DNA of 64,000 nt from Deltaproteobacteria bacterium (GCA_031278395.1 JAITKM010000007.1:1-64000), one strand, 5' to 3'. Positions 1-9,349 are shown, counted from the first letter of the stretch. Made by a program: numbers and translations. The notes: generated by a model from the sequence alone, not told the origin.

Positions 1-1655
1 TCAGAGAGCATTTTTAAAAACTTTTCTTCAAAGTTCGGCACAGTTTTATCTTGATAAGCCTTATAAAGAGCATTAGCAATACAGTTTGCAAAAGAATACT
101 GATAGCAGTAAAACGGATAGCAAAATATTTGCATTATCGAAAACCAATCGTGAGTCTGTTCTGCCCTGAATTTAACTACCTTCCCCATATATTTCTGCGC
201 CTCTTCTCTGTAAATCTGCGCTATTCTTTCTCCAGAAAGCTCGCTTTTTTTTCGCTCAATATGGACACGTGACTCAAAAATATGAACTACTATACTCCAC
301 ATAATATGTCGTATTGCCATCTCAATATTATTCATCAATAAAACTAATTTTTCCCTGCCATTGTCGGAATTTTTCAGCAATTCATTAAAAACAAGCATTT
401 CACAAAAAATAGATGCAATCTCCTTTAAGACGTCCGGCGTATTTTCATTAAGATATGATTGATTCTTAAATAAATCATAATGGCAAGAATGACCTAATTC
501 ATGCGCTAAAGTAAAAACGTCCGACATTTTACCGCAAAAACTAAGCATAATATAGGAATGAAGCCTGTTATTTATATATGCCGAGAATGCTCCGCTACAT
601 TTATTGTCTCGCACCGAAGCATCAATCCAGCTCTCTTTAAATGCTCTTTCTGCGATTTTTGACAACTTCGGCGAAAAATTCTCAAACGCTGTTAAAATAA
701 TTTCCTTGGCTTCTTTCCACGCATAGCATCGGTCTTTTTCAAAAGGAAATGGCAAAGACAATTCCCAAGTCGGTATCTGTTTTTTGCCTTGCAGTTTGGC
801 TTTTAATTTAAAAAATCTGTGCGATATTGTTTTATAGTTGGCAACGACTGTCTGACTTAATAAATTAACAACCTTGTCATCTATTTCATTAATCAAATTT
901 CTCTTAGACACCGGAGAAGCATAACGTTCAAACTTATCGGCAATCGCTTTATCTTTAACGAGCATATTATAGATAAAAGCAAAAAGCGCGCTGTTCTCAG
1001 CGTCAACCCGAACAAACTCATCGCTAATCTTTTTCCTTTTAGCGCCTCTTGATTTAAAAAAAAGATTTCCTATTTCGCTATTACCGTATATTTTACCATC
1101 TATTTTATATTTTAGTTTAGAATACGACTCTTGATACAAGCGTGCCCAAGCATCGCCGGACGTTGCAGCTTTAGATATAAAAACTGCGTTTTGCTCTTCA
1201 CTGATACTATGTCCGCTAAATCTTCGGATATGCTTTATCGCAGACACGTAAAATTTCAATTTTGAATTTTTAAGCCACTTATTAATTTTTGCATTAGGCA
1301 AGGAATTAATCTCAAAATTAATAAAAGCGATTTCTTTTTTTAAAACACTTACACATTCCTCTATTTTCTGGCATAAAGAACCGGCGTAACCGTCATTTAA
1401 TTTGGCAGAATAATTTAACTGAACAGCCATGCTTAATTTTGCAAATGTTTCTTCCACCTCTTCAAGCTGTTGAAACATTTTAAAAATCTCACTTACACTA
1501 AGCGATGAGATTTTCCCTTTACATCTTCCAACAAGCTCGGAGCAAATCTTTTTGCAACGCTTTAAATCTCTCTGTAACAGAGGTTCAGAACAAGAATTAT
1601 ACAATTCGGATAAATCCCATTCGGGAATATTTTTATCTTTTGCAGATCGCTTCAT
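1..1655 (-). CDS. M3-family oligoendopeptidase F-like metallopeptidase (copy 1), C-terminus truncated by window edge
   Basis: Open minus-strand frame from ATG at 1655 running off the window start (absent from ORF track, presumably because no stop lies inside). Reads MKRSAKDKNIPEWDLSELYNS...; contains FTLAHELGHSCHYD (HExxH) and resembles the 4942-6729 protein throughout. Confidence 0.85.
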   Translation of the reverse strand, partial: MKRSAKDKNIPEWDLSELYNSCSEPLLQRDLKRCKKICSELVGRCKGKISSLSVSEIFKMFQQLEEVEETFAKLSMAVQLNYSAKLNDGYAGSLCQKIEECVSVLKKEIAFINFEINSLPNAKINKWLKNSKLKFYVSAIKHIRRFSGHSISEEQNAVFISKAATSGDAWARLYQESYSKLKYKIDGKIYGNSEIGNLFFKSRGAKRKKISDEFVRVDAENSALFAFIYNMLVKDKAIADKFERYASPVSKRNLINEIDDKVVNLLSQTVVANYKTISHRFFKLKAKLQGKKQIPTWELSLPFPFEKDRCYAWKEAKEIILTAFENFSPKLSKIAERAFKESWIDASVRDNKCSGAFSAYINNRLHSYIMLSFCGKMSDVFTLAHELGHSCHYDLFKNQSYLNENTPDVLKEIASIFCEMLVFNELLKNSDNGREKLVLLMNNIEMAIRHIMWSIVVHIFESRVHIERKKSELSGERIAQIYREEAQKYMGKVVKFRAEQTHDWFSIMQIFCYPFYCYQYSFANCIANALYKAYQDKTVPNFEEKFLKMLS

Positions 1656-1695
1656 TAGAATTACGGATATTGTTAAACAACGCTAAAAATAAAAA

Positions 1696-1720
1696 GTAGG
1701 TTGAGCTTAACTCAACCTAC
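1696..1720 (-). terminator. Rho-independent terminator between the Cys-rich peptide gene and the M3 peptidase
   Basis: Perfect 10-bp stem GTAGGTTGAG/CTCAACCTAC, followed on the minus strand by TTTTTATTTTT. Confidence 0.75.
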
Positions 1721-1774
1721 CTGCAAAACTTAAAAACCTTTGCGAAAAATTTTTGACTACACACTAACTACACA

Positions 1775-1939
1775 CTACTTGCCACATGTGCTACATGAGC
1801 AAGTGTCAGAAACTGAACATAAGCAAAGAGAAGCATCTCTTTGAAGGTCTGTCTCTGGCAGCGCCTTTCCGTCACAAATAGACAAAAATTGCGGCTCAGA
1901 ATCGACTTCGTGAGGAAGATTAATTTCTTTTTCACTCAT
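1775..1939 (-). CDS. Putative RiPP precursor: 54-aa peptide with six cysteines and a Cys-rich C-terminus
   Basis: Too short for the supplied ORF track. Reads MSEKEINLPHEVDSEPQFLSICDGKALPETDLQRDASLCLCSVSDTCSCSTCGK*. Preceded by GAAAGGAGGTGATAAAC-ATG (near-perfect anti-SD complement) and followed by a terminator hairpin; lies just downstream of an rSAM/SPASM gene. Confidence 0.8.
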   Translation of the reverse strand: MSEKEINLPHEVDSEPQFLSICDGKALPETDLQRDASLCLCSVSDTCSCSTCGK

Positions 1940-1972
1940 GTTTATCACCTCCTTTCGGGCTTTAAAAGCCGG

Positions 1973-3289
1973 TTAAGGGTTAAGGATCGACACAAAACCA
2001 GTCATAATCAGTTCGCTAAAGAACTTTTCATAACCAGGCTCAACGATTTCAGCTACGCTGCAAATCATGTTAGGCTGTAAATTGCCTAACATATCTGCGC
2101 CTAGCTTGTTTATCAGATATGCACGATAACCGTTCCAAGCTATAGCGCCAAACTCCTCAGACCTGATAGCAAAGTCATTAATTATAATCCGCTGTCCTTC
2201 TGTCTTCAACTGCGCCATAGTTTCTTCCTGAAGCTGCTGCATCATCTTGCCGGCTCTGGAGGCATTGGGTGGATTAATTAACAATTTAGTCGCAGATTTT
2301 TTATTACAGCAGCCAAGTTTGCAACTTCCGCCACAACGCTCTAGCAGCCAACACTCATGGCATTCATCTAAAATAAATTCATCTGTCTGCCAAGCTGAAA
2401 ATTCTTGCCAAATATCCGCTAGCTTTAAGCTTTGAATTGAGCCAACACTGTCCGTCACAAACGGACATGCCCTAACTTCGCCATCACTAGCAATCGTGCA
2501 TCCCAGTATCCCGGCTGAACAACTGGTGGATAAACAAAATTTAAAGCTATCCAGCTCAGGAAAAATGCAGTACGGGACAGGCGTAGCCTTAATCACATTA
2601 ATTCCCAGTTCGTTGTTGATATAAGACATCTGGTTTAAGACATCTATATATTCTTTACGAGTCAAGGAATACGCAGAAAAATCTGCACAATTAACAGGAC
2701 ATTCAGCTACATCCATATTGATAAAGGTGCAACCCATATCTCGCAGCATTTTAGCTGTTTTCAGAAGCTCATTCTTGTTAAGCTTACTGACAACAGTGTT
2801 CGTGCTGAAAGATACACCATTCTGCAAGCATAGCTCAATGCCTGCGACAGTTTTATCAAACGAACCCGTAACTCCCGTAACAGAATCATGGACATCAGAT
2901 GATGCACCATGTATTGAAAAATACATAGATGCCAACCCAAGCCCTGTCAATTCATCTAAGACGCTGCGTGTCAATAACGTAGCATTAGAGTTCATAGAAA
3001 CCCTAATGCTTGTTCCGTGCCAACGCTGAAGCAGGAGTTTTATAACTCCGTAGTTCAGTAAAGGTTCGCCGCCGGTTAAGCACACGCTAAACACTTTTGC
3101 GTCAATCAACTCTTGAGCTACTTTTTCTGCTAGTTGTTCAGTCATCTGATTAGATGCTGAACAATACTGTTGAACTCCAAAATCGCGCCAGTAGTTGTAA
3201 CAATGCATGCAACCAAGATTACAATTGCCTGTTACTTCTACAAAAACACGAATCGGAGATTTCAACCTCCGAAACAATCTTCTACTCAT
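1973..3289 (-). CDS. Radical SAM/SPASM peptide-modifying enzyme with C-terminal PqqD-like (RRE-type) domain
   Basis: CNLGCMHC (CX3CX2C) rSAM motif, LTGGEPLLN, Cys-rich SPASM-like region (CHECWLLERCGGSCKLGCC), C-terminal segment resembling PqqD (AIRSEEFGAIAWNGYRAYLINKLG...FFSELIMTGFVSIL). Confidence 0.85.
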   Translation of the reverse strand: MSRRLFRRLKSPIRVFVEVTGNCNLGCMHCYNYWRDFGVQQYCSASNQMTEQLAEKVAQELIDAKVFSVCLTGGEPLLNYGVIKLLLQRWHGTSIRVSMNSNATLLTRSVLDELTGLGLASMYFSIHGASSDVHDSVTGVTGSFDKTVAGIELCLQNGVSFSTNTVVSKLNKNELLKTAKMLRDMGCTFINMDVAECPVNCADFSAYSLTRKEYIDVLNQMSYINNELGINVIKATPVPYCIFPELDSFKFCLSTSCSAGILGCTIASDGEVRACPFVTDSVGSIQSLKLADIWQEFSAWQTDEFILDECHECWLLERCGGSCKLGCCNKKSATKLLINPPNASRAGKMMQQLQEETMAQLKTEGQRIIINDFAIRSEEFGAIAWNGYRAYLINKLGADMLGNLQPNMICSVAEIVEPGYEKFFSELIMTGFVSILNP

Positions 3290-3510
3290 ATTTAGTTTTT
3301 CCTTTCTGGTTAGAGAAATGAAAGTGTTTATGTAAAAACCTTAAGAAAAACATTTTCTACGATAAATACAAACGTTATGTTTCTGCCGCAGGATGTTTTT
3401 CTTGAAAACATTTCCGACCGCCAGTATCAAAAAAAAAAAATAAGCAAGTGGTTAAAAAAATTTTTAAAATCTATAAAAATTAACAAGTTATATAAAGCGA
3501 AAGTAACCCG
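3290..3510 (-). promoter_or_regulatory. Conserved leader/upstream region of rSAM gene (copy 1)
   Basis: Nearly identical to 7914-8135 upstream of the second rSAM remnant; contains overlapping inverted repeats AAGAAAAACAT/ATGTTTTTCTT and TGTTTTtcttgAAAACA. Confidence 0.55.
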
Positions 3511-3567
3511 CACCATGGGGAAAAACCAGAAAAAAAACACTAGAGTCACAGATAAATAATTATACAA

Positions 3568-4332
3568 TTATACAACCCTATAACGTTTTTCTTCCGGAAA
3601 TTTTCGTAAAAACTCATCAATCGACTGAACAAGATTTGTTTCAGGCTGTTTTCCAATACATTCATCCATATACGAACAAACTTTTGCAATTTCCTGATAT
3701 TGTGAAATGGTGCCATCCGACCATTTATAAAAATTGTCTATCTCATTAATCTCGTTAAAAGCATAAATGCATAAATTATCTACAATCCGCTCTTTCTCTT
3801 CTTGCTGTAATTTAAATCGCTGAACTATTATTTCTTCGATTCCTAAATGCAACATTTCGTGCACGAGAGTAACAGAGACTTTCCAAAAATTATCCCCACA
3901 ATAACCAAAGTCCACAACTCCAAATTTAGCATGATAGCCCGCCCCTGCTCTATAGCAATTTATATCGATTCTATATTCACGCCAAATCTTAAAATCCCAA
4001 CTTTTATTTAACGCTTCAAAGCGTAAATAACACTTTTGAACAATTGGAATTGCTGATTCGATTACCTCAACCATTTTTTTGTGTTCACCAATGTCAAATA
4101 ATTCTATCTTAAATCGTTCAAAATATTTATCACAAAACTGCTTATCATTATCAATTTTTGCCAAACATATATCGTCAATCATTTCATTAATTAATAGGTT
4201 ATTTTTGCTTCGCAGAAATCTTTCCATATAAAGACGATTATTTTTCTTAAACCATTCTAATCGACAAATATTAGAACATAAATTGTTCCACGCTTGATTG
4301 ACATCAGGGATTACAATTTGGAAATTAAACAT
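3568..4332 (-). CDS. Uncharacterised HExxH protein (putative metallopeptidase)
   Basis: 254-aa ORF with VTLVHEMLHLGIEE; no secretion signal obvious; lies between the two M3/rSAM modules. Confidence 0.6.
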   Translation of the reverse strand: MFNFQIVIPDVNQAWNNLCSNICRLEWFKKNNRLYMERFLRSKNNLLINEMIDDICLAKIDNDKQFCDKYFERFKIELFDIGEHKKMVEVIESAIPIVQKCYLRFEALNKSWDFKIWREYRIDINCYRAGAGYHAKFGVVDFGYCGDNFWKVSVTLVHEMLHLGIEEIIVQRFKLQQEEKERIVDNLCIYAFNEINEIDNFYKWSDGTISQYQEIAKVCSYMDECIGKQPETNLVQSIDEFLRKFPEEKRYRVV

Positions 4333-4797
4333 GATATTTAAAAAAAATACTTATAAAAATCGCTATGTAAAAGGGGGTATTTTATCATCTAAAAACACCC
4401 AAAAAGCAAAACCAATTATTAAAAAAGTGCTAATTTTTAACCAAAAAATTAGCAAAAGGAAAAGCATATATGGGGACATCATAGCATACATACTGTATGA
4501 CTATTGCCTTCCATTATAGTCTCTGTCTGCATCACAATCGCAATCACAATTTCTTTCTGGTGCAGGGTTACTTTTTGTTATCTTATCTTTATTATCTTTC
4601 TACGATTACTCTTATATAAAATCAACTGATAAACTGGACGATATATTCTTTTATCATTAAATTTCTTTAGACTGATTTTAAAAGAATCGCAAAAAAAACC
4701 TGCACCAAAATTTTTTCCAATTTTTTTTTTAAATTATACTGGCGGAACCTCAACAGCTTTAAAGTATCCGGGAATTTTTAGAAGTTTCCTAAAATGC

Positions 4798-4856
4798 CTA
4801 GGGAGAGACTCGAACTCTTACAGGGTTACCTTTAATTAAAGGACTCTCGCTTGCAA
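4798..4856 (-). pseudogene. Degenerate tRNA-Leu-like 3' fragment
   Basis: Minus strand GCGAGAGTCCTTTAATTAAAGGTAACCCTGTAAGAGTTCGAGTCTCTCCCTAGGCA: long variable arm, T-arm GAGTTCGAGTCTC and acceptor 3' strand, but no matching 5' half upstream. Confidence 0.5.
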
Positions 4857-4941
4857 AAACCAATAATTGATCACAAACCAAAGAATATCACAAAATGTCG
4901 CAAGCATAATATATTTACAAAATAATCAACACTGAAATCTA

Positions 4942-6729
4942 TTACGATAACACTACAACTTGAGATAATTCCTCAGCTTCGTCAAGATAATCAGAAATTA
5001 AATTTAGCCCTTTTTGCCAGAAGTCTTTTTGATTAACATCCAATCCAAAGGGTTTTAGCAATTCTTGATAGTCTTTTACTCCTGATTCAGAAAGCAGCTT
5101 TAAATATTTTTCTTCAAAATCTGGAACTAATTTTTCTTGATAAACTTTATATAGCGACTGAACAATACCACTCGCAAAAGAATACGAATAACAATAACAC
5201 GGATGAAAAAAGCAAGTCGGAAAAGAAAGCCATTCATGATTTGGCTTATCCATTAGATTCACCGTCGAGCCAAAATATTTACTTCTTTCTTCCTGAAAAA
5301 TTTGCGCCAAGTGTTCTGCAGAAATCATTCCTTTATTGATTTCTTGATGCGCACGAATTTCAAAATTATGAAATAACGCTGTGTATAAACTATCATTTAT
5401 CATCTGTTGAATTTGGCTCATCAATATTTCTAGTTTTTCTAAATCAGATTTTACAAAGTCTAGTAACTTTCTTAAGGTCAAAAAAGCTCCAAAGGTAGAA
5501 GGAACTTCGCACAAAAATATCGACGAATTATTGTTTAAAATCTTTTGTTGCTTCAAAAAAGTAAAATGACTTGCATGTCCAAGCTCGTGCGCAAGAACTG
5601 CCACATTGCTCCGGGTTCCGGTAAACTGAAGCGAAAGATACGCGCCCCATATGGTCGGTACAGGACAAGCAAAGGCAGTATCTCTTTTACCAGCCCGCAC
5701 CTCTGCGTCTATTACGCGGTTATCAAAAAAATTCTTTACGATTTTATATAGCTCAGGAGAAAACTCTTTATAGGCGCTTAAAATGATAACTTTTGCTTCG
5801 TTCCAGTTGTAACGTTTAGGCTGGATCAAATCTAGTTGCAAATGCGCATCCCAATATGGAATTTTGGATACTCCAAGCAGTCGCGCTTTTAGCTTAAAAA
5901 AACGTTGTGAAATATTTTTATAACTATCATTAACCGTTTGCAACAATAGTTCAACAGTTTTATCATCAACTTGATTATCAAAATTAACCTTAGCCAGAAT
6001 GGAATCAAATTTATAAATATTCGCTTCAATCTTTTGATCCCGTATAATCATGTTATAAAGATACGCAAAAAAATCAGCATTATCAGCATAAACTCTTTGC
6101 CGCTCGTTGTTAATTTCCTTGCGTTTTTTTCCGTTCACCTTATTAAACAATGCCCACAATTCTGGGTTGCTATATTCTTTGTTACCAATTCTAAATCTTA
6201 GCTTAGCAAAAGATTGATTGTAAAGCCTCAGCCAACCAGTAAATGATGTCTCGTCTTTTTTAGACAAAATATTTTTTATAACATCAGACACCTTGTGTGC
6301 ACGATGTCTTCGCAAGTATTTTAGAGCAGGCAAATACTCTCTTAATTTTTTATTTTTCAATAAGCTGCAAAGTTTATTCTCAGGAATAGCAACAATTTCA
6401 TTCTTATAAAACAAAATATTGCTTTCAATATTCTGCAACTGCGCGTGTATCTTGGCACTACCAACTTTAATATTTTTGTAATTCTCCGTTTCTTTTAAAT
6501 AAAAAAATCTCCATAATTTAATGCAAATCTTTTCCAACCTCTCCAGCAACTCAAACATCTCAAACATTTCTTTGGCGTTTAGCTTTGCAATTTTGCCCTT
6601 ATATTTTGCAGCAAAATTAGTTGTTAGCTTCTTATATGTCGCTAAATCTTCTTTTATCTTCGGATCAGAAACCGACTTATACAATCTTGACAAATCCCAA
6701 CGCGGTAACTTTTGATTATTTTCCTTCAT
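4942..6729 (-). CDS. M3-family oligoendopeptidase F-like metallopeptidase (copy 2)
   Basis: 595 aa; VLAHELGHASHFTF HExxH motif; paralogue of 1-1655. Confidence 0.88.
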   Translation of the reverse strand: MKENNQKLPRWDLSRLYKSVSDPKIKEDLATYKKLTTNFAAKYKGKIAKLNAKEMFEMFELLERLEKICIKLWRFFYLKETENYKNIKVGSAKIHAQLQNIESNILFYKNEIVAIPENKLCSLLKNKKLREYLPALKYLRRHRAHKVSDVIKNILSKKDETSFTGWLRLYNQSFAKLRFRIGNKEYSNPELWALFNKVNGKKRKEINNERQRVYADNADFFAYLYNMIIRDQKIEANIYKFDSILAKVNFDNQVDDKTVELLLQTVNDSYKNISQRFFKLKARLLGVSKIPYWDAHLQLDLIQPKRYNWNEAKVIILSAYKEFSPELYKIVKNFFDNRVIDAEVRAGKRDTAFACPVPTIWGAYLSLQFTGTRSNVAVLAHELGHASHFTFLKQQKILNNNSSIFLCEVPSTFGAFLTLRKLLDFVKSDLEKLEILMSQIQQMINDSLYTALFHNFEIRAHQEINKGMISAEHLAQIFQEERSKYFGSTVNLMDKPNHEWLSFPTCFFHPCYCYSYSFASGIVQSLYKVYQEKLVPDFEEKYLKLLSESGVKDYQELLKPFGLDVNQKDFWQKGLNLISDYLDEAEELSQVVVLS

Positions 6730-6776
6730 ATAATTTTCCTAAAAACAGACTTTATTTATTGATAACATAAAGGTAA

Positions 6777-7467
6777 TTACACATAATTTCCCGGCGAGAA
6801 ATATTTATCAAAGATATATTTCATCCAAATACAAAAATTATAATCTATTCCATTTATTGATTTTGTTCTGTTATACGCGCTGACTTTACATCCTGCTCCG
6901 CAAAAACTAATAGCCGGGCATTTTTTGCAGATAGGATTATTGAATCTTGAAATATAGCTCTGAATATGTGTAGAAATTTTTACATTGTCGTCTATATGCC
7001 CTAATTTTATTTCAGTTAGATTCTCTAATGCTTGACAAGCGTGTATGTTGCCTTCAGGAAACACAACCATTTTTCTGCCAATACCACAACTTTGCTTTTT
7101 AAGCTTTCCAGTTTTGACAGCCTCCACTACATCCAAAAACAGATAATCGTAAATATTATATTTTATGCTTTTATTATGTGTAGCAATCATACTCTCCGCA
7201 ATTACTACTGGCAGTTTGTCATCAAATTCCTCAATACCCAAATCAATTAACAAATTCATGCCATATTTCGTTACATAAAAATTTGTGTAATAGCAATTGA
7301 TTGACACTTTCGTTATCAACGTAATTTACAAACCAATTGGGTTCATCTTTTATTAAGGCATTCTTGATGTCATCAGATAAATAAATACTTTTACATATAA
7401 GTGAATGCCAGACATATCGCGTTTTAGTTACACCATGAACAAACTTTGATTTTCTTATTTCAGACAT
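6777..7467 (-). pseudogene. Frameshifted remnant of a second radical SAM/SPASM peptide maturase (C-terminal SPASM part plus a short N-terminal segment)
   Basis: Two overlapping frames: 7243-7467 (SEIRKSKFVHGVTKTRYVWHSLICKSIYLSDDIKNAL, typical maturase N-terminus) and 6777-7319 (CGIGRKMVVFPEGNIHACQALEN...CKKCPAISFCGAGCKVSAY, SPASM). Core rSAM cysteine motif absent. Confidence 0.6.
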
Positions 7468-7496
7468 AAAGCAAAATAATGGAGCAATAAAAATAA

Positions 7497-7913
7497 CTAT
7501 GTAATTAGATCGTGAATTTCAGAACACGAACCAAGCACTGAAACCAATACGCTATGAAGCACTAATTCCTTTAACTCTAGCAAGCGTTCTTGCGTAAGCA
7601 GTGTAAGATTAGAATTCATTGTAACCACAATGCCTGCATCTTTACACCTGCGAAGAACTAATTTCACTATATTGTAATTCGTAAGTGGCTCTCCTCCGGT
7701 GAGACAGACACTAAGCACTTCAGACTTAATAAGCTCATCTATAACACGATTTGCAAGTGCTTCTGATAAATGCTCTGCTGAAGCGCAATTAAGCTGTTTG
7801 CCCAAATCACGCCACGAATTGTAGCAATGCTTACAACTCAAGTTGCAATTTCCCGTTACATCGATAAACACGAGAAGCGGTGCCTTCAGCTTCCGAAACA
7901 ATCTTCTACTCAT
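7497..7913 (-). pseudogene. Truncated radical SAM enzyme (paralogue of 1973-3289, N-terminal ~138 aa only)
   Basis: MSRRLFRKLKAPLLVFIDVTGNCNLSCKHCYNSWRDLG...SVCLTGGEPLTNY aligns with the N-terminus of the intact enzyme, then stops after IHDLIT. Confidence 0.75.
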
Positions 7914-8135
7914 ATTTAGTTTTTCCTTTCTTGGTTAGAGAAATGAAAGTGTTTATGTAAAAACCTTTAAGAAAAACACTTTCTACGATAAATACAAACG
8001 TTATGTTTCTGCCGCAGGATGTTTTTCTTGAAAACATTTCCGACCGCCAATATCAAAAAAAAATAAGCAAGCAGTTAAAAAATATTTTAAAATCTATAAA
8101 AATCGGCATGTTATATTAAAGACAAAGTAACCCTG
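7914..8135 (-). promoter_or_regulatory. Conserved leader/upstream region of rSAM gene (copy 2)
   Basis: Near-identical copy of 3290-3510. Confidence 0.55.
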
Positions 8136-8344: not shown

Positions 8345-9349
8345 TCATTTTTTCCTACAACATCTACCATGGCAAATACGTCTGTTTGAGCTGGAGGAAT
8401 TACTCGACAATAAAATTGCCGGGCAGTTATTCTCACAAGAAACAAAAACACCGTCTGGGCATTGTCTAACACAACTTGGACATTCATCATCACAAGCGAC
8501 TGTTATGGTGTTGTTGAGGCACGATTTAAGCGAACAAATAGACGAATTACTTTCGCTATTACTACTAGAACTTAGCGTAGAAAAAATACTACTAGTTAAT
8601 GTACTAGATTCAGAATTACTACTAGCCTCAGAACTTTCCAAACTTGATGATTCAAAAGAAGATTCTAAGCTTAAACTGCTTGAAAGACTTTGACTTAAAT
8701 TATTCGAGCTAGAATTACTAGAGGAGCTATTTATTAAAGAACTTGAATTTGATAATTCACTAGAGATACTAATACTAAGCGAATTTAAAGCGCTGGAACT
8801 AGACGAACTTGAAAAACTTGTGGGGATCGTTGAATCATATGAAAATTTATAATCATAACAACCTATATAAATATCGGCATATGGTTTATCAGGATGGCCG
8901 CAATAATAGTCATCAAATTCAGAAAATAATTCTAAAGTAATGGTAAAATAAACATCTGAACTATTCCCAAGAATATCGTTTGGTGAAATTTGGTAAGTAA
9001 TATCTACTGATTGTGGTATTGTTGCTAGCTCTGCATCATCCTTGGGTAATGGAGGAATAGCAGAAGTTAATTTTATACTATTTCTGTCCAAAGATATACC
9101 ATTAATAATCACAATAAGCTCACAACCACCATAACAATCAATCCAGACTACGTCTTTATTAGAGTAGTTTACTGCATTATAATAATCATTATCAGTAATC
9201 TTAAGCGACCTTTCGCCAACAGCATTAAGTAAATCAGTAAGGTCGGTTGCAAAACTTTGAGTGTTATAAAAAAAGAAAACTAATAGGAAAATAAATATAT
9301 TAAAAAACGTTTTGAAAATATTAAAGCATCGGATTTGATTTTGATACAT
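8345..9349 (-). CDS. Secreted Ser-rich low-complexity protein with Cys-rich basic C-terminus
   Basis: 334 aa; hydrophobic N-terminal signal (FFNIFIFLLVFFFYNTQSFA), ~130-residue Ser-rich stalk, C-terminal CDDECPSCVRQCPDGVFVSCENNCP...RRICHGRCCRKK. Confidence 0.65.
   Translation of the reverse strand: MYQNQIRCFNIFKTFFNIFIFLLVFFFYNTQSFATDLTDLLNAVGERSLKITDNDYYNAVNYSNKDVVWIDCYGGCELIVIINGISLDRNSIKLTSAIPPLPKDDAELATIPQSVDITYQISPNDILGNSSDVYFTITLELFSEFDDYYCGHPDKPYADIYIGCYDYKFSYDSTIPTSFSSSSSSSALNSLSISISSELSNSSSLINSSSSNSSSNNLSQSLSSSLSLESSFESSSLESSEASSNSESSTLTSSIFSTLSSSSNSESNSSICSLKSCLNNTITVACDDECPSCVRQCPDGVFVSCENNCPAILLSSNSSSSNRRICHGRCCRKK

Follow-up and report, generated by a model that had tools for sequence, protein, structure and literature searches.

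The first genes of the DNA analysed here, a stretch of 64,000 nucleotides (the window) from a Deltaproteobacteria bacterium, raise the question whether an rSAM/SPASM maturase, a cysteine-rich peptide and an M3 oligoendopeptidase constitute a RiPP system, and whether the M3 enzyme is its dedicated peptidase. Both had been proposed in the original prediction, and the open reading frames named there were all present at their coordinates. The window opens at base 1 of contig C25, of which it covers 64 kb, in an assembly of 1.71 Mb with a completeness of 92 %. An extension to the left is thus impossible in the present assembly.

Three modules were recognised in the window (Table 1). One is apparently intact, although the contig ends within its M3 gene, and the other two are decayed. 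They include two peptidase types and the remnant of an unrelated maturase. The best-preserved module is located at 3520-1. Its M3 protein (M3-1) matched TIGR02290 (E = 1.6e-123) and PF01432 (E = 2.8e-26). A purine-rich site similar to that ahead of the precursor gene is present in the sister modules of this genome (G000) as well as in the intact module of a second genome, G034, and hairpins comparable to that of module 1 were found in most other modules examined.

Table 1. Features of the three modules on the window
Feature	Position	Strand	Remarks
M3 oligoendopeptidase 1, module 1	1..1655	-	Open at window base 3; first 551 aa; gene leaves the contig
Terminator-like hairpin, module 1	1694..1722	-	Stem of 13 bp followed by a T run; separates the precursor stop from the M3 start
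Precursor peptide, module 1	1775..1939	-	54 aa, 6 Cys, MSEKEINLPHEVDSEPQFLSICDGKALPETDLQRDASLCLCSVSDTCSCSTCGK
Shine-Dalgarno AGGAGG of module 1 precursor	1948..1953	-	Sequence
rSAM/SPASM maturase, module 1; predicted PqqD-like (RRE-like) domain at its C-terminus	1973..3289	-	438 aa
Shared upstream element/structured 5' leader, module 1	3290..3520	-	90-97 % identical before other module rSAMs
HExxH protein of type A, module 2; putative zinc peptidase	3568..4332	-	254 aa; homologues on C9, C45
Terminator-like hairpin, module 2	4375..4400	-	Predicted hairpin
Truncated precursor remnant, module 2	4501..4558	-	Ends ...RNCDCDCDADRDYNGRQ*; CDCDCD tail
M3 oligoendopeptidase 2 (M3-2), module 3	4942..6729	-	595 aa, intact; TIGR02290 E = 1.2e-121
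C-terminal remnant, with SPASM, of an rSAM maturase of another class (SCIFF/PapB-like)	6777..7319	-	TIGR04085 E = 5.4e-13, TIGR03974 E = 1.1e-10
N-terminal remnant, core deleted, probably of the same maturase as 6777..7319	7243..7467	-	ORF calls, rSAM-locus comparison
5' fragment of module-family rSAM, module 3	7497..7913	-	138 aa, then stop
Shared upstream element, module 3	7914..8133	-	92 % identity with the module 1 element

Recurrence of the module in the genome

With the 438-aa rSAM as query, paralogues were identified on contigs C35, C18, C9, C21, C22, C45 and C13, besides fragments. All seven are followed downstream by a small cysteine-rich ORF and a zinc metallopeptidase. The 1.71-Mb genome thus holds at least eight modules in the same order: an rSAM/SPASM maturase with a predicted PqqD-like C-terminal domain, a cysteine-rich peptide of 48-63 aa and a zinc metallopeptidase. 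The peptide gene is located behind a strong ribosome site, and in most modules a terminator-like hairpin comes next. Six of the eight rSAMs are full-length; the copy on C21 stops short where its contig ends, and that on C45 has no 5' part. Several modules are decayed or cut by contig ends, including the M3 gene of the best window copy. An exporter had not been seen in the window; none is visible in the modules, and no peptidase-C39 exporter (PF03412) was found in the 92 % complete genome, a family detected in eight of 14 control genomes.

Maturase and precursor peptides

The 438-aa maturase matched Radical_SAM (PF04055, E = 3e-22) and SPASM (PF13186, E = 1.3e-4) in Pfam. It carries the rSAM motif CX3CX2C (C23-C27-C30) and the SPASM cysteines CX17C (C257, G270, C275) and CX2CX5CX3C (C310X2C313X5C319X3C323). 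Its AlphaFold model (mean pLDDT 77) matched anSME, CteB, SkfB and SuiB in a fold search, and in this model residues 367-436 at the C-terminus resemble a PqqD-type winged helix. The PqqD domain assigned earlier is a putative one, indicated by the predicted fold and by a sub-threshold match (E = 0.18); Pfam detected no PqqD domain in this protein, and no sequence profile confirmed one. None of the curated NCBIfam families of RiPP-forming rSAMs (SCIFF, geopeptide, PapB, GeoRSP etc.) was matched at its cut-off; the best NCBIfam match was NirJ2 with 116 bits against a cut-off of 500, and the others shown were below theirs as well. A scan of a genome-contig database yielded only remote rSAMs with at most 30 % identity, and the plasmid scan only rSAMs of about 23-25 % identity, e.g., PqqE, among the matches listed. 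Neither the rSAM nor the type A protein was matched in the scans of viral contigs, nor type A in the phage scan.

A precursor was defined as an ATG-initiated ORF of at least 45 aa with a Shine-Dalgarno site and at least three cysteines in its second half, located between rSAM and peptidase. Nine of ten rSAM-peptidase intergenic stretches contained such an ORF, against 0-3 in 2000 dinucleotide shuffles of each stretch, so that a chance ORF was rejected. The tenth stretch, in a decayed module of G034, encodes a 74-aa peptide outside this definition. Mantel tests across nine modules revealed a strong correlation of rSAM similarity with leader similarity (r = 0.81, p = 0.0003), to which the leader part of the module 1 precursor contributes, but none with the core (r = 0.06, p = 0.32). 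Leaders that follow the maturase and cores that do not are the signature of a maturase reading the leader next to a freely varying core. The type of the peptidase was related neither to the leader (p = 0.19) nor to the core (r = -0.03, p = 0.51, a comparison of peptidase class that left finer sequence out). Properties of an rSAM-type RiPP locus found here are a short precursor with a conserved leader and a variable core, and an adjoining modifying enzyme with the CX3CX2C rSAM motif and SPASM.

CteB and SkfB (sactipeptide/ranthipeptide) and SuiB (streptide-type) ranked among the best PDB matches of the maturase, by sequence and by fold. These enzymes combine an rSAM domain with SPASM/twitch and a leader-binding domain, the last of which is predicted for the maturase, and precursors of thioether systems are also rich in cysteine. 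The cysteine-rich cores are suggestive of sactipeptide or ranthipeptide thioethers. In contrast to CteB, SkfB and SuiB, whose leader-binding domain is N-terminal, the predicted PqqD-like domain is C-terminal here; the fold alignments show 16-19 % identity, and the module carries an M3 or HExxH zinc peptidase. With PQQ synthesis (PqqA/PqqE/PqqD) the modules share an rSAM/SPASM enzyme, a (here predicted) PqqD-like domain and a short precursor, and proteases are also involved in PQQ synthesis (PMC8326336). However, the PqqD-like domain is fused C-terminally in the modules, and the cores are cysteine-rich and hypervariable instead of providing one Glu-Tyr crosslink. The presence of many modules in one genome makes a cofactor role unlikely. 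Eight modules in a 1.7-Mb genome suggest a peptide repertoire for competition or signalling.

An exchangeable peptidase slot

The position behind the precursor gene is filled by three unrelated zinc peptidases: M3 in the window (M3-1) and on C35 and C21, a type A HExxH protein of the same type as window 3568-4332 on C9 and C45, and a type B HExxH protein, a gluzincin, on C18, C22 and C13. M3-1 and M3-2 exceeded the cut-off of PF01432, and the HEXGH...E residues, in M3-1 HELGH with the downstream Glu, are invariant in the four M3 proteins of the genome. HExxH and the downstream Glu are also kept in the type B proteins, which present the gluzincin pattern HExxH...EG.A and weakly match Peptidase_MA_2/M1. 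For type A, no family of Pfam or NCBIfam was matched, and the fold search with its model yielded no significant match. Another HExxH protein (HELAH, 293 aa, no family match), encoded at the end of the C13 array (L021:388-1269, minus strand), may be a fourth peptidase type. Two similar GNAT-like acetyltransferases are encoded downstream of a type A and a type B module peptidase (L020:2755-3366 and L021:1412-2050, both minus strand).

The peptidases are confined to modules and their remnants. The genome has exactly four M3 genes, all beside an rSAM of this family or its remnant. Type A gave exactly three matches, each of them within a module or what is left of one, and the same holds for every well-scoring type B match. 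The four M3 proteins form one clade (support 100/100). Because the M3 modules are related by duplication, the four M3 adjacencies are not independent events; independent support for the slot comes from the unrelated peptidases in the same position. Along the rSAM tree the slot switches from one peptidase type to another. The rSAM and M3 trees disagree: the window M3-1 is nearest to C21, the window rSAM to C35 (89/91). With moderate support, this disagreement indicates that cassettes may have been exchanged. With three unrelated proteases beside related rSAMs and leaders, the genome offers a natural experiment by which protease specificity can be told apart from leader recognition.

Among 47 genomes of the phylum, all of one class, the rSAM family (E ≤ 1e-40) was present only in G000 and in G034, a member of another order. 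Contig C26 of G034 encodes an intact module in which the rSAM is followed by a 48-aa peptide ending in CLCLAHPPKCNR, then by a hairpin and finally by a peptidase of type B; a decayed module is located on C7 and a remnant on C10. The expected co-occurrence of the rSAM with a cysteine peptide and a zinc peptidase thus extends to G034, but the partner there is type B and not M3. M3 genes occur in 20 of the 47 genomes, and outside G000 no family rSAM was found beside an M3 gene in the flanking sequence examined, which reached 1.5 kb at most; this makes M3 a lineage-specific recruit. An rSAM-RiPP module with an M3 peptidase recurs in this genome, with all four M3 genes next to a family rSAM or remnant, but the idea that M3 defines the system had to be rejected: G034 uses a gluzincin, the M3 genes of other genomes have no such rSAM in these flanks, and M3 is one of three interchangeable peptidases. 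An involvement of M3 in the rSAM-RiPP system is probable, in a putative role.

Role of the peptidases

We consider it fairly probable that each module yields one rSAM-modified RiPP whose leader is processed by the zinc peptidase, M3 being a recruited processing enzyme. The maturase would recognise the leader of the precursor by means of the PqqD-like domain at its C-terminus and modify the cysteine-rich C-terminal core, most likely by Cys thioether crosslinks; the zinc metallopeptidase would then act in the cytosol to trim the leader or remove it. Since the peptidase gene follows a terminator-like hairpin, its product is presumably made in smaller amounts. Metallopeptidases that process RiPPs are known from lanthipeptides and LAPs, namely AplP (M1), MfuP (M61), PttP1/2 (M16) and TldD/E (M103). 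Type B resembles the M1/Peptidase_MA gluzincins, if weakly; the modifying enzyme of the modules, however, is an rSAM. The metalloprotease section of a 2023 review on RiPP leader proteases treats M1, M16, M50, M61 and M103, with M1, M16 and M61 enzymes processing other RiPPs, and M3 does not appear in this section, nor was oligoendopeptidase found in the text of the review (PMC10885120). A literature search, with most subscription journals outside it, retrieved no report of an M3 enzyme or oligoendopeptidase with an rSAM RiPP, which is not a proof of absence. If the processing role is correct, peptidase family M3 joins the RiPP-maturing metalloproteases. For TldD/E, threading has been described, with degradation of the leader until the core blocks (PMC10885120). 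By analogy, but with an unrelated fold, M3 might thread the precursor and digest its leader up to the point where the crosslinked core stops the enzyme, within a birth-and-death RiPP array with an exchangeable peptidase cassette; this extended picture is tentative.

M3 oligopeptidases usually cleave or degrade short peptides, and the length of the precursors, 48-63 aa, was counted against processing by M3. The family habit of degrading small peptides would also suit a peptidase that destroys unmodified or incoming peptide for quality control or self-protection, with the leader removed elsewhere or kept. The location behind a terminator-like hairpin and the independence of peptidase class and leader, as for a non-specific clearing enzyme, are consistent with this role. 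Yet a dedicated peptidase in every module exceeds the needs of housekeeping clean-up, and the zinc peptidases of other RiPP clusters mature the product (PMC10885120), so that destruction has to be seen as unlikely. That a peptide gene is paired with a single protease gene, and that the cores are hypervariable, would further agree with a crosslinked peptide that inhibits or regulates the adjoining metallopeptidase and is not its product; the core does not follow the peptidase type, as far as class was compared, and we give this idea hardly any credence.

Some HExxH proteins of RiPP clusters are alpha-ketoglutarate oxygenases, among them a protein of an rSAM system once annotated as metallopeptidase (PMC12636437). 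Type A and/or type B could accordingly add a second modification, like the ChlB-type enzymes and PflC, and type A has no known family. As in the systems with an rSAM-fused HExxH domain or PflC/PosC, an HExxH protein is encoded near a RiPP-modifying enzyme, but neither type A nor type B matched an NCBIfam HExxH-modification family even at E ≤ 1, and type B retains its gluzincin pattern and weakly resembles M1. Bona fide M3 peptidases in the same slot point to a peptidase as well. The oxygenase was therefore rejected as the main reading and appears quite improbable. We regard it as equally improbable that the M3 adjacency is incidental, i.e., that an ancestral M3 gene behind one rSAM was copied along with the duplicating modules. 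The single M3 clade and the M3 genes of other phylum members, which are not beside rSAMs, would fit such a history. It does not account well for two unrelated HExxH families in the same slot of sister modules, one of them also in G034, nor for an M3 frame that stays open with its catalytic residues even where the rSAM has decayed, and the conflict between the rSAM and M3 trees suggests exchange over hitch-hiking.

Duplication and decay of the modules

The tandem duplication with one decaying copy, as proposed earlier, was confirmed as to duplication and decay, but the picture of two sets was too simple for three modules and the remnant of an unrelated maturase. In module 2 the rSAM is lost and the precursor tail, the hairpin and the type A peptidase are kept. 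The HExxH protein, seen before as a separate gene between the two sets, is thus the peptidase of its own module, and its homologues on C9 and C45 are both located directly behind an rSAM and a cysteine peptide. The DNA near the hairpin (4415-4463) resembles DNA of C18. In module 3, M3-2 is preceded by the remains of two maturases. The 138-aa fragment shares 55 % identity with residues 1-139 of the 438-aa rSAM, in agreement with its assignment as a truncated paralogue. The stretch 7467-6777 had been taken for one frameshifted SPASM maturase; it consists instead of a core-deleted N-terminal piece and the SPASM part of another rSAM class, with SCIFF and PapB as best specific matches, and a close relative of the SPASM remnant was absent among the rSAM loci fetched. 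The N-terminal piece presumably resembles the N-terminal domains of SCIFF-like maturases.

Upstream of most rSAMs, a stretch of about 230 bp is 90-97 % identical between modules, far above the identity of the genes; the copy on C9 has no distal part. The transcribed portion (window 3287-3425, minus strand) is predicted to form a long hairpin (RNA fold z = -2.65 against shuffles), and an Rfam search of the element returned no credible family. Contig ends fall inside the element, and the end of C13 and the start of C22 overlap exactly over 119 bp, which suggests tandem modules that the assembler did not resolve. In G000 as in G034, fragments of all three kinds of module gene (rSAM, precursor, peptidase) indicate a birth-and-death evolution: modules multiply by tandem and dispersed duplication around the near-identical upstream element and then decay, with fast diversification of the cores.

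The element carries CTTGCTTA or CTTGCCTA, followed by 9-14 T and GATACT or GATATT, in the window at 3423-3448 and 8049-8071 (minus strand); the same arrangement occurs in C13, C22, C35, C50, C38 and C52. The length of the T run varies between copies and could reflect a slippage-prone, phase-variable promoter or, possibly, homopolymer assembly errors. Weaker or partial copies of the element were located at C50:1025-1142, C38:2678-2817, C46:29411-29487, C55:3728-3788 and C55:2206-2262, and the genes behind them are unrelated (a ThiF-like protein, a LivH-like permease and cysteine-rich predicted secreted proteins). Adjoining the modules, window 8345-9349 (minus strand) encodes a Ser-rich and Cys-rich predicted secreted protein that matched no known family in profile searches; a similar cysteine-rich stretch is present at C38:3-521. 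A short dispersed repeat, TTCTGGTGCAGGGTTACTT-like, recurs in the surroundings of the modules, in the window at about 4560-4600 and 8090-8130 and in L020. C18, C21 and C45 have other repeats of about 100-200 bp in common, and one of these is located where the rSAM on C45 is truncated at its 5' end.
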